Shown: piece by piece, positions 28,489 to 33,362 of the stretch
Position numbering within the stretch: position 1 is the first letter of the stretch
Layout of the letters: each line of letters begins with the position of its first letter
Source: Phenylobacterium montanum
GTDB taxonomy: Bacteria > Pseudomonadota > Alphaproteobacteria > Caulobacterales > Caulobacteraceae
Length of the DNA stretch: 64,000 bases
Reading direction: 5' to 3'
Assembly (NCBI RefSeq): GCF_018135625.1
Contig: NZ_CP073078.1
Span: 806,001 to 870,000 of the forward strand
Made by a program: the position numbers and the translations under genes
Notes under the pieces: generated by a model
The model's input: only the letters and a program-made list of their open reading frames with translations
Told to the model about the DNA's origin: nothing
Databases searched by the model: none

Positions 28489-30798
28489 TCAGCCCCGCGC
28501 CCGCTCCACCGTCTCAACTGGCGGGCAGGCGCGCAGGGCGGCGGCGATGTTGGTCAGGTGGCGGGCGTCGCGCACCTCGATGTCGAAATCGACGTCGAAG
28601 AAGTCGGCCTGGCGGTGATGCATGCGCATGCCGACGATGTTGCCGCCGGCCTGGCCGATGATGGTGCAGGTCTGGCCGAGCACGCCCGGCGCGTCACGGA
28701 TGGTGGCCTTGAGCTTGGCCTGGGAGATGGTGTTGCGTTCGGCCTCGGGCGTCCATTGCAGGTCGCGCCAGAGGTCGTCACGGTCCTCGTATTCAGCCAG
28801 CTTCTGGCAGTCGATGGCGTGTACGGTCAGGCCGCCGCCATCGGGCTCCAGGATGCCGACGATGCGGTCGCCGGGCACCGGGTTGCAGCAGGTCCCGAAG
28901 TGCAGGCTCACGCCAGGCGTAAGGCCGCCGCCGCGGACGAACAGGCGCGCGCCCTTGCCGCCCTCGATCTTGCGCCGGGCCGCCGCAGCGGCCTTCTCGG
29001 TCTCCTTCAGGCCCGGGAACAGCACTTCCAGCACCTGGGCCGGCGAGATGCGCCCGCGGCCGACGGCCTCGTAGAGCTCCTCCTCGGTGGGGGCGGTGAA
29101 CCGTTCCAGGGCGGGGCGTAGCGAGACCTCGGCGCGCGTCTTGCCGGCGCGCTCGATGGTCTGGTCGATCGAGGCGCGACCGAGGCGGATGAACTCGTCC
29201 TTTTCGGTCTGGCGCATGTGCCGGCGGATGGCCGAGCGCGCGCGGCCGGTGATCGACAGCGACTGCCATTCGGGGTGGGCGACCGCCTTGGCTCCACGGA
29301 TCACCTCGACCACGTCGCCATTGGTCAGAGGGGTGCGCAGGGGGCGAAGCTCGCCGTTGATCTTCACGCCCACCGCGGTGTCGCCCACGTCCGAGTGGAC
29401 CGCGTAGGCGAAGTCCAGCGGCATGGCGCCCCTGGGCAGGCTGATCAGCTGGCCCTTGGGGGTGAAGACGAACACCTGGTCGAGGAACATCTCCAGCTTG
29501 GCGTGCTCGACTAGGTCCTCGGCGTCGCCGCCGTGCTCCAGCACCTGGACCAGGTGGCGCAGGTTGACCAGGGGGTCGCGCCCGCCCGCCGCCTGCTGCG
29601 CCTCGGCGTCGAAGCCGTAGCTTTCGTCCTTGTAGCGCCAGTGGGCCGCCACCCCGTCCTCGGCGACCCGGTTCATCGCCTCGGTGCGGATCTGCATCTC
29701 GATCTTCATGCCCTTGGGGCCGACGACCGTGGTGTGCAGCGAGCGATAGTTGTTGCGCTTGGGGGTGGAGATGAAGTCCTTGAACCGCTCCGGCACCATG
29801 GGCCAGGCGCGGTGGATCACACCGAGGGCCTGGTAGCAGGCCTCCTCCGACTCCACGATCACGCGGAAGGCGTAGATGTCGGAGAGCTGGGAGAAGCCGA
29901 TGGATTTGCGCTGCAGCTTGCGCCAGATCGAATAGGGATGCTTTTCGCGGCCGAACACGCGGCTCTTGATTCCCGCCGCCTCGAGCTTGGCCGAGATTTC
30001 GCCGCTGACCACCGCCACGGTGCTGCTCTGCTCGGCGCGCAAGACCTCCAGCCGCCGCACGATCGCATCGCGCGCCACCTTGTTCAGGTGGGTGAAGGCC
30101 AGCTCCTCCAGTTCGGTGCAGATCCGATGGCAGCCGATCGAGCGGGCCAGGGGCGCATAGATGTCCAGGGTCTCGCGAGCGATGCGCTCGCGCTTTTCCT
30201 GCCGCGGAATGAACTCCAGCGTGCGCATGTTGTGCAGCCGGTCGGCCAGTTTGACCATCAAGACGCGCACGTCTCGGGAAATGGCCAGGATGAACTTGCG
30301 GAGGTTCTCCGCCTGGCGAGTGTGCTCGGCCTGCAGTTCCAGACGCGACAGCTTGGTCACGCCTTCCACCAGTTCGCCGATCAGGGGGCCGAAAAGCTGG
30401 TCGATATCGGCGCGGGTGACCGGGGTGTCCTCGATCACGTCGTGCAGCAGGGCGGTGACGATGGTCGCCGTGTCCAGCCTATAGTCGGTCAGGATGCCGG
30501 CCACCTCGATCGGGTGGGCGAAATAGGGATCGCCCGAGGCCCGGGTCTGGGAGCCGTGCATGCGCATGGCGTAGACATAGGCGCGGTTGAGCAGGTCCTC
30601 GTCCGCGGTCGGGTCGTAGCTCTTGACCTTGTCGATCAGCTCGTACTGGCGCAGGAACTTGGGCCGGGCCTTGGCGGCCGGCTTGGATTCAGCTGCGGAT
30701 ATAGCGTCTGCGGCCGTCGCCAATACGTCGGCCGGAGGGATTTCGGCGGATTTTTGAGCCGCCGACAGCGTGCCTGTGTCTGGCGCCGGGGCGCTCAG
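28489..30798 (-). CDS. spoT: bifunctional (p)ppGpp synthetase/hydrolase, RelA/SpoT family
   Basis: Single RSH enzyme for the stringent response. Order: HD hydrolase ([29 protein letters not shown]), synthetase ([38 protein letters not shown]), TGS ([16 protein letters not shown]) and a C-terminal ACT domain ([20 protein letters not shown]). Both catalytic halves look intact. There is no ATG or GTG in frame between the rpoZ stop and the HD domain. I place the start at CTG 30798, which overlaps the rpoZ stop as CTGA and has AAGAGGAG 5 nt upstream (769 residues); TTG 30723 is the alternative but lacks a binding site. The Ala/Pro-rich first 45 residues look unstructured. Confidence 0.93.
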
Positions 30799-31154
30799 TA
30801 CCGCTCCTCTTGACCGCCGTCGCGGTCGCTCTGAAGGGCGCGGACCAGTTCCTGCTCGCTCATGTGCTGGTGCTGCGGATCGGCCAGCAGGGCCAGGGTC
30901 TCGGCCTCTTCCTCGGCGTCGGCGCGTTCGTCGACCCGCTGCAGGCTGGTGATCAGGCTCTCGCGCAGGCCTTCGGCGTCGAGCACGTCGTCGGCGATCT
31001 CGCGCAGGGCGCAGACCGGATTCTTGTCGTTGTCGCGGTCGACGAGCAGCGGCGAGCCGGCGGAGATCGCCCGGGCGCGATGAGCCGACAACAGCACCAG
31101 GCTGAAGCGGTTCGGGACTTTCTCGACGCAATCTTCGACGGTGACGCGAGCCAT
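30795..31154 (-). CDS. rpoZ: RNA polymerase omega subunit
   Basis: 119 residues starting [20 protein letters not shown], followed by [20 protein letters not shown] and [14 protein letters not shown], the omega core. The C-terminal tail is acidic. It binds the beta' subunit and in E. coli forms part of a ppGpp site, which fits its place directly upstream of the (p)ppGpp enzyme; rpoZ-spoT adjacency is widespread. ATG 31154 is preceded by GAGGTTTCC, a weak site. First gene of the long leftward run. Confidence 0.95.
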
Positions 31155-31596: not shown

Positions 31597-32106
31597 TCAA
31601 ACCCGCAGGGGCCGCGCGTCTCGGCCGACGCTCGCCGTCAGCGCTAGCGCTGACGCGGTCTTTCCCAGCACCGGATGCACCCAGTCCGGAGCGACCTCCG
31701 CCAGGGGCCCCATGACGAACAGTCGCTCCGCCGCCCGGGGATGCGGCAGGATCGGCGCGTCTTGCGAAACCAGCCGGCCGTAGGCGATCAGGTCGAGATC
31801 GAGGGTCCTGGGCGCGTTCTGGCGCTCTCGCTCGCGCCCGAAGCGGCGTTCGATACCGTGCAGCGCCTCCAGCGCCGCGGCAGGCCCCAGCCGCGTCTCG
31901 ACAATCGCGACGGCGTTGAGGTAGTCAGGGTCCTCAAGGTTTGGCCACGCCGCCGATCGCCACCACTTGGACCGGACAAGGAGCGTCAGCCCCGCCCCCG
32001 CGAACTCATCGAGCGCCGCTTCCAGCAGGGCCTGAACGGAGCCGAAGCCGCCCTTCAGATTGCCGCCCAAAGCGACTAGAACGGCGCTATCGAATCGAGA
32101 CCCCAT
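31597..32106 (-). CDS. folK: HPPK: 2-amino-4-hydroxy-6-hydroxymethyldihydropteridine diphosphokinase
   Basis: Pyrophosphorylates the pterin precursor of folate. 169 residues: [44 protein letters not shown], and the signature [18 protein letters not shown] with [16 protein letters not shown]. Usual family length. No folB or folP is adjacent. Start at ATG 32106 lies 22 bp from the divergent NYN gene start, so promoters overlap or are very short. Confidence 0.94.
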
Positions 32107-32128
32107 TTCAATCAGGACATTTCGCCGT

Positions 32129-32728
32129 ATGACTTTTTACCCCAACGATCGTATCGCCCTGTTTATCGACGGCGCCAATCTCTATTCCTCGTCAAAGAGC
32201 CTCGGCTTCGACATCGACTACAAGAAGCTTCTGGAAGAGTTCCGCAAGCGCGGCATGCTGACCCGCGCCTATTACTATACCGCCCTGGTGGAAGATCAGG
32301 ACTATTCGCCGATCCGCCCGCTGGTCGACTGGCTGGACTACAACGGCTACGCCCTGGTGACCAAGACCGCCCGCGAATACACCGACAGCCAGGGCCGCCG
32401 ACGCTGGCGCGGCGACATGGACATCGAGATCGCGGTCGACATGATGGAGATGGCTCCGCACATCGACCACGCGGTGTTGTTCTCCGGCGACGGCGACTTC
32501 CGCCGCCTGGTGCAGGCGGTGCAGCAGAAGGGCGTGCGCGTGACCGTGGTCTCGACCATGAAATCGCAGCCGCCCATGGCCTCCGACGACCTGCGCCGCC
32601 AGGCCGACAGCTTCGTCGATCTGGCCGACCTGTCGGGCATCATCGGCCGCCCTGCCCGCTCGCCCCTGCCCCGCTTCATCCAGGGCGACGCCGCCGAGCA
32701 AGAGCGCGAGGCGAATGCCGACAGCTGA
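32129..32728 (+). CDS. NYN-domain (LabA/DUF88) family putative ribonuclease
   Basis: 199 residues. PIN-like NYN fold with the three acidic patches expected for metal-dependent nuclease activity: RIALFIDGANLYSSSKSLGF, RGDMDIEIAVDMMEMAP and HAVLFSGDGDFRRLVQAVQQ. MVSTMK-like ending VTVVSTMKSQPPMASDDLRR and a basic tail follow. ATG 32129 (MTFYPNDRIAL) was chosen because the open frame upstream runs into folK. RNA substrate unknown; LabA-like proteins are linked to RNA regulation. Its 3' end overlaps the DNA glycosylase gene by 14 bp. Confidence 0.88.
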   Translation: MTFYPNDRIALFIDGANLYSSSKSLGFDIDYKKLLEEFRKRGMLTRAYYYTALVEDQDYSPIRPLVDWLDYNGYALVTKTAREYTDSQGRRRWRGDMDIEIAVDMMEMAPHIDHAVLFSGDGDFRRLVQAVQQKGVRVTVVSTMKSQPPMASDDLRRQADSFVDLADLSGIIGRPARSPLPRFIQGDAAEQEREANADS

Positions 32729-33362
32729 CGCCGCGGCCGAACCCGCCCGCGACTGCCCGCTCTGCCCGCGCCTGGTGGACTACCGCCGGGCCAACCAGGC
32801 CGGCAATCCCGACTGGTTCAACGGACCGGCGCCCTCGTTCGGCGACCCGGACGCGCGACTGCTGGTCGTGGGCCTGGCCCCCGGGCGGACCGGCGCCAAC
32901 CGCACGGGCCGGCCGTTCACCGGCGACCATGCCGGCTGGCTGCTCTACGGCACCCTGATCAAGCTCGGCTTCGCCCGAGGGGTCTACGACGCCCGCCCCG
33001 ACGATGGGCTGGAGTTGGTCGACTGCATGATCACCAACGCGGTCCGTTGCGCCCCGCCCGGCAACAAGCCGCTGCCGGCGGAGGAGGCCCAATGCCGCCC
33101 GTTCCTCGCCGCGCGGCTGAAGGCCCTGCCCCGGCTGAAGGCCATCGTCACCCTGGGCGATGTCTCCCGCCGCAGCGTGCTGCGCGCCCTGGGCGCCAAG
33201 GCCAGCGCCACCGAAGCCGGCCACGGGACCGAGACCGACGTGGCCGGTTATCGCCTCTTCAACAGCTATCATTGCTCGCGCCTGAACACGAACACGGGCC
33301 GCCTGACGCCGGCCATGTTCGAAGACGTATTTCGCAGCGTGCAAGCCTATCTGCGCACCTGA
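32715..33362 (+). CDS. uracil-DNA glycosylase, family 5 (UdgB-like)
   Basis: 215 residues. Cysteines for an iron-sulfur cluster begin in DCPLCPRLVDYRR and continue in VDCMITNAVRCAPPGNKPLP. GLAPGRTGANRTGRPFTGDH lacks the catalytic Asp of family 1 and 4 glycosylases, as expected for family 5, and the C-terminal loop NSYHCSRLNTNTGRLT is typical. These enzymes remove uracil, hypoxanthine and other damaged bases. The gene overlaps the NYN gene by 14 bp, which implies co-transcription. Confidence 0.9.
   Translation: MPTADAAAEPARDCPLCPRLVDYRRANQAGNPDWFNGPAPSFGDPDARLLVVGLAPGRTGANRTGRPFTGDHAGWLLYGTLIKLGFARGVYDARPDDGLELVDCMITNAVRCAPPGNKPLPAEEAQCRPFLAARLKALPRLKAIVTLGDVSRRSVLRALGAKASATEAGHGTETDVAGYRLFNSYHCSRLNTNTGRLTPAMFEDVFRSVQAYLRT

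Follow-up and report, generated by a model that had tools for sequence, protein, structure and literature searches.

Our comparison of the rpoZ-spoT junction across related genomes gives good support to the view that spoT, in the Phenylobacterium montanum DNA studied here, starts at a CTG codon overlapping the stop codon of rpoZ, and this start appears to be shared by most of the Caulobacteraceae. We propose, with a probability of roughly 0.68, that spoT is translated by hairpin-gated termination-reinitiation from rpoZ onto this weak CUG start. No description of a CTG start of spoT was found in the titles and abstract openings listed for the open-licence papers searched, and what is new here is the predicted RNA hairpin containing the CUG start itself.

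The window, i.e. the whole stretch of 64,000 nucleotides that was analysed, carries both genes on the minus strand: rpoZ (30795..31154), encoding the 119-aa RNA polymerase omega subunit as judged from its translation and the Pfam family RNA_pol_Rpb6, and, downstream in a different frame, spoT/rsh (28489..30798), encoding 769 aa when read from the CTG, with HD, RelA_SpoT, TGS, AH/RIS and ACT domains (Pfam), a domain content suggesting a bifunctional (p)ppGpp synthetase-hydrolase. The 3' end of rpoZ reads CAA GAG GAG CGG TAC TGA, and its last five codons hold a Shine-Dalgarno (SD)-like sequence, AAGAGGAG (30804..30811, minus strand; CAGGAGGAG in most coupled relatives), placed 5 nt from the CTG (30798-30796), which overlaps the TGA (30797-30795) as CTGA (30795..30798, minus strand). 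The sequence-only reading had pointed to this CTG and its upstream SD-like sequence, and to a frame devoid of ATG and GTG between the rpoZ stop and the HD domain, and the coordinates are confirmed on both counts: TTG 30723-30721 (codon 26) is the sole ATG, GTG or TTG codon of the spoT frame from the CTG to the HD domain, and the first ATG lies at residue 78, within the HD_4 match (Pfam, 73-222). Upstream of the CTG, the spoT frame stays open through rpoZ, with a TTG at 31131. Taken in this single sequence, the overlap is within chance, because a mechanical scan of the window, which scores open frames and not verified genes, lists 70 places where frames overlap as NTGA, 25 of them CTGA; the GTGA overlaps cited in the sequence-only reading appear among them. 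It is the conservation of CTGA in 131 of the 132 coupled Caulobacteraceae loci (leaving out L122, from another family) that lifts it above chance. The neighbours at 31597-33362 encode an HPPK (folK-like), an NYN-domain protein and a uracil-DNA glycosylase family protein.

For this comparison, the spoT protein was searched in 198 related genomes (match in 197), in 142 genomes of the class (match in 132) and in a named genome collection, from which the best 80 loci were used; the relatives among these best 80 belong to Caulobacter, Phenylobacterium, Brevundimonas, Asticcacaulis and further Caulobacteraceae. The 210 loci gave 171 junctions upon removal of 29 duplicates, nine loci without rpoZ in reach (Asticcacaulis L102 and L104 among them) and one without the SpoT N-terminus, the 171 being made up of 131 loci with CTGA, L052, 15 from Asticcacaulis (L096-L101, L103, L105-L108, L110, L198, L199 and L201), L109 (G020), L122 and 22 from other families. 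The 131, the 15 and L052 constitute the 147 distinct Caulobacteraceae junctions, with the divergent G020 excluded; L122 has CTGA followed at a short distance by an in-frame ATG. Families were assigned by family label for L001-L110 and by title or similarity for L131-L207. Family genomes with a match that were left out are G047, G060, G062, G068, G072, G089, G109 and G118, and G064 gave no match; 20 of 79 genomes from other families of the order were taken in, and at class level 28 new loci outside the family (L212-L239) were read from the genomes with a match. One locus, L154, comes from a record titled Arachidicoccus, a Bacteroidota genus, and carries a Caulobacteraceae-like spoT (78% identical); it is probably a mislabelled or mixed assembly.

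In-frame CTGA is found at 131 of the 147 distinct Caulobacteraceae junctions, the remainder being the 15 Asticcacaulis loci, where the genes lie apart, and one locus (L052/G015) whose CTG frame begins LTPPGVEPL like its relatives and slips later, out of frame with spoT. This slip is possibly an indel error, because the same contig is found again under L174, a single 'quiver' assembly. The CTG is separated from the conserved core (RQYEL) by a linker rich in Ala and Pro, 22 to 71 codons long (30658..30795, minus strand, in the window). Across 81 cluster representatives, this linker contains no stop in 3431 codons of the CTG frame, as opposed to 40 stops in 3350 codons and 76 in 3350 in the two alternative frames. 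Because this one frame is always open despite 30 distinct linker lengths among the 81 representatives, the linker is very probably translated. Furthermore, 36 of 80 scorable representatives (50 of 128 loci) offer no ATG, GTG or TTG anywhere between the in-frame stop upstream and the core. On DNA comparison, a start other than these three codons is conserved across species. A start further upstream in rpoZ was considered and is ruled out by 25 of 130 loci, in which an in-frame stop precedes the CTG by seven codons and none of which has ATG, GTG or TTG in between; a conserved upstream ATG in relatives, which according to the sequence-only reading would have pointed to an error in this sequence, was looked for and not found. 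Codon choice at the end of rpoZ tells in the same direction. The rpoZ stop is TGA in 131/131 coupled loci versus 0/15 in Asticcacaulis (spoT's own stop is TGA in 27 of 64), and 77 of 82 coupled representatives use GAG for the first Glu codon of the SD, versus one of 15 in Asticcacaulis, the GAG:GAA ratio elsewhere in rpoZ of the coupled genomes being 955:780. An Arg-codon comparison was only suggestive.

Asticcacaulis provides a natural control, the uncoupled state for comparison. All 15 of its loci end rpoZ with TAA or TAG, at a distance of 210 to 599 nt from a reference point close to the spoT core, and 14 of them have GAA as the first SD Glu codon. The last rpoZ codon in this genus is TAC in 15/15, though spoT there uses 69 TAT and 37 TAC. 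The nearly invariant last Tyr codon of the CTGA loci (TAC in 131 of 132 with L122 included, TTC in one) had been considered as evidence for CTG over TTG and was dropped, as TAC is the codon of Asticcacaulis too. In other families of the order, ATG, GTG or TTG is available within 18 nt of the rpoZ stop in 18 of 20 loci (all except L128 and L129). Altogether, the junctions in related genomes, whose comparison the sequence-only reading had proposed, argue strongly for its choice of start codon and for its tie between spoT and rpoZ.

Beyond that reading, the family-wide conservation is accompanied by a candidate structure at the start codon. Hairpin I (predicted; 30780..30798, minus strand) pairs the CUG with a CAG at 30782-30780 around an inner GCGC/GCGC stem, with 13 nt separating the CUG from the CAG. 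At 94 of 131 loci (53 of 82 representatives), the third base of codon 6 is A, where codon usage would predict 3.0 such loci, although the residue itself varies (Ala 66, Thr 17, Val 15, Pro 12, Ser 10) and GCA makes up 2% of Ala codons in the spoT genes examined; a codon 6 ending in A thereby makes a CAG available to pair with the CUG. Predicted pairing of the start codon with bases downstream of it averages 0.78 as opposed to 0.43 in synonymous recodings of codons 2-16 (82 cluster representatives), or 0.83 versus 0.44 over all 131 loci, and ten control sites within spoT (n = 82 at five sites, 32-34 at the other five) gave differences of -0.11 to +0.04, compared with +0.34 at the start. The share of representatives with p ≤0.125, a value that, like those of the swap tests, is not to be taken literally and for which clustering controls relatedness in part, was 61% at the start versus 9-19% at the control sites. 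The 32 representatives without the CAG show a smaller excess (0.60 versus 0.37), pairing of the start falls below 0.3 in 11 of the 82, four of them CAG-bearing, and pairing of the SD is barely above that of the recodings (0.65 versus 0.56). Hairpins with halves swapped between species fold worse (-16.4 versus -18.9 kcal/mol), mainly in the non-CAG class; in the CAG class the swap gave a nominal p = 0.017 for the whole, and neither the inner hairpin (p = 0.56) nor the rpoZ end against the spoT codons (p = 0.15) reached significance. Together, these data support a nucleotide-level constraint that would let the start codon pair.

In the window, the probability of hairpin I changes with the stretch folded (0.02, 0.87, 0.50 and 0.97), a 69-nt stretch folding differently from it, and divergent lineages are predicted to have other stems at the start, e.g. 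an 8-bp stem in L066 and an extended one in L035. Folding energy just after the start is unremarkable, with a mean z of -0.62 at 0..30 versus -0.55 and -0.65 inside spoT. Fixed-column covariation is modest in a set of 85 of the 125 distinct stretches, chosen for a CAG at codons 6-7 and with these columns hence invariant by choice, and slid controls score near or above the observed value. A second predicted hairpin, hairpin II (UCGGCGG-CUCAAAAAU-CCGCCGA; 30743..30765, minus strand), lies within codons 12-19; a similar G+C-rich hairpin is predicted near the same place in many relatives, and fixed-column counts, with 37.6% of cells paired, lend it no support. The structure is predicted to mask the downstream initiation site, and hairpin I may form in the cell and sequester the start codon.

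Several other explanations have to be weighed against this proposal. SpoT might use TTG 30723 or a codon close to the conserved core as its start, leaving the stretch after the CTG untranslated. This would agree with the class-level loci, where ATG or GTG is available at the start of the core in 28/28, with the 28 and 13 of 129 Caulobacteraceae loci that have ATG and GTG, respectively, two codons before RQYEL, and with published residue numbers for C. crescentus that imply a start fitting an internal one. On the other hand, the linker is stop-free and shares the frame of the CTG at 131 of 132 coupled loci, ATG, GTG and TTG are all absent there from 36 of the 80 scorable representatives, the internal starts differ among the six loci compared, and TTG at codon 26 occurs in one of 131 coupled loci, that one being the window itself; we therefore reject TTG 30723 and regard an internal start in general as very improbable. 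As for the numbering, published C. crescentus SpoT residues include D81 and Y323 (PMC4848567). In the Caulobacter vibrioides DSM 9893 locus (L025), the Tyr of YRSLHT, which we take to be this Y323, is residue 358 counted from the CTG and 323 counted from a TTG at codon 36, and another Caulobacter-like locus, L028, has no TTG at codon 36. The published start is likely a mis-annotation placed about 35 codons too far downstream, as judged through DSM 9893 and not from the NA1000 sequence itself. Ribosome profiling and peptides assigned a CTG start to 0.7% of mapped genes in C. crescentus (Schrader 2014, PMC4117421), the main text of that paper not naming spoT.

An RpoZ-SpoT fusion made by -1 frameshifting at the rpoZ stop, with help from the SD and the hairpins, appears even less probable. 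Known frameshift sites are stimulated by an upstream SD and nearby structure, which this junction resembles; however, with a last rpoZ codon of TAC (131 of 132) or TTC (one), tRNA-Tyr would have to re-pair from UAC to GUA, no slippery heptamer was seen when the junction was read by eye, and the predicted hairpin covers the shift site rather than following it. A more serious contender, although still unlikely, is that the CTG is indeed the start but that the hairpin serves mRNA processing, attenuation, a binding site or slight tuning. The nucleotide-level constraint, which is clear whatever its purpose, and the presence of hairpin II further inside spoT would fit such roles; against them, it is the start codon itself on which the pairing centres, no U-run follows hairpin I in the window, and no Rfam family reaches the gathering score in 30550-30950, the sole listed match scoring 16.6 bits with a cut-off of 58.

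We therefore favor termination-reinitiation gated by the hairpin. An mRNA hairpin at which free 30S subunits seldom initiate would enclose the start codon and, in many cases, some of the SD; a ribosome translating rpoZ would open the hairpin and halt at the UGA with the SD adjacent, and a small fraction of the terminating ribosomes would restart at the overlapping CUG with fMet. SpoT would probably be made only as a by-product of rpoZ translation, and its synthesis, given the weak CUG and the hairpin, would be a small fraction of that of omega. Sequence comparison supports the start site, translation of the linker and the constraint on the SD, and from there we infer reinitiation, gating, low output and regulation. 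According to figures given in PMC11497404, CUG makes up 0.024% of starts in bacteria and supports initiation at 0.86% of the AUG level, which makes it plausible that, as the sequence-only reading held, the codon keeps the level of SpoT low; as a whole, that interpretation is partly supported.

The junction can be compared with known systems. In E. coli, rpoZ also directly precedes spoT, whose annotated start is a weak TTG, but 18 nt separate the rpoZ TAA from the spoT start there and the two do not overlap. infC and pcnB have conserved weak AUU starts, and the spoT start resembles these as an inefficient near-cognate start long conserved in a regulatory gene, but differs in being CUG, in overlapping a stop codon and in lying within a predicted hairpin, with no link to IF3 known here. 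A review of translational coupling describes both RNA unfolding and reinitiation, e.g. in rpmI-rplT and in phage MS2 coat-lysis (PMC12548453). Like the systems in that review, the junction has an overlapping stop and start, an SD in the upstream gene and a predicted structure at the downstream start, and so appears to have the parts for both modes; unlike them, its start is CUG, its hairpin pairs with the start codon, and coupling is proposed here from sequence. The same review reports that structure just downstream of a stop can also lower coupling (PMC12548453), which counts against our proposal.

If SpoT starts at the CTG, a protein begun where the published numbering implies is short of about 35 residues, and constructs designed accordingly would be without the native start. 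From a broader point of view, a CUG start kept in most of the family, with a predicted hairpin on the codon, offers a clean natural case for why so weak a start is kept. One rather speculative reading is that the CUG and the hairpin act as a translation sensor, so that SpoT synthesis would track the state of the translation machinery, because initiation would rely on terminating ribosomes as well as on the initiation factors that select against CUG. If true, this would mean that most Caulobacteraceae have kept a feedback linking ribosome activity to the (p)ppGpp enzyme.
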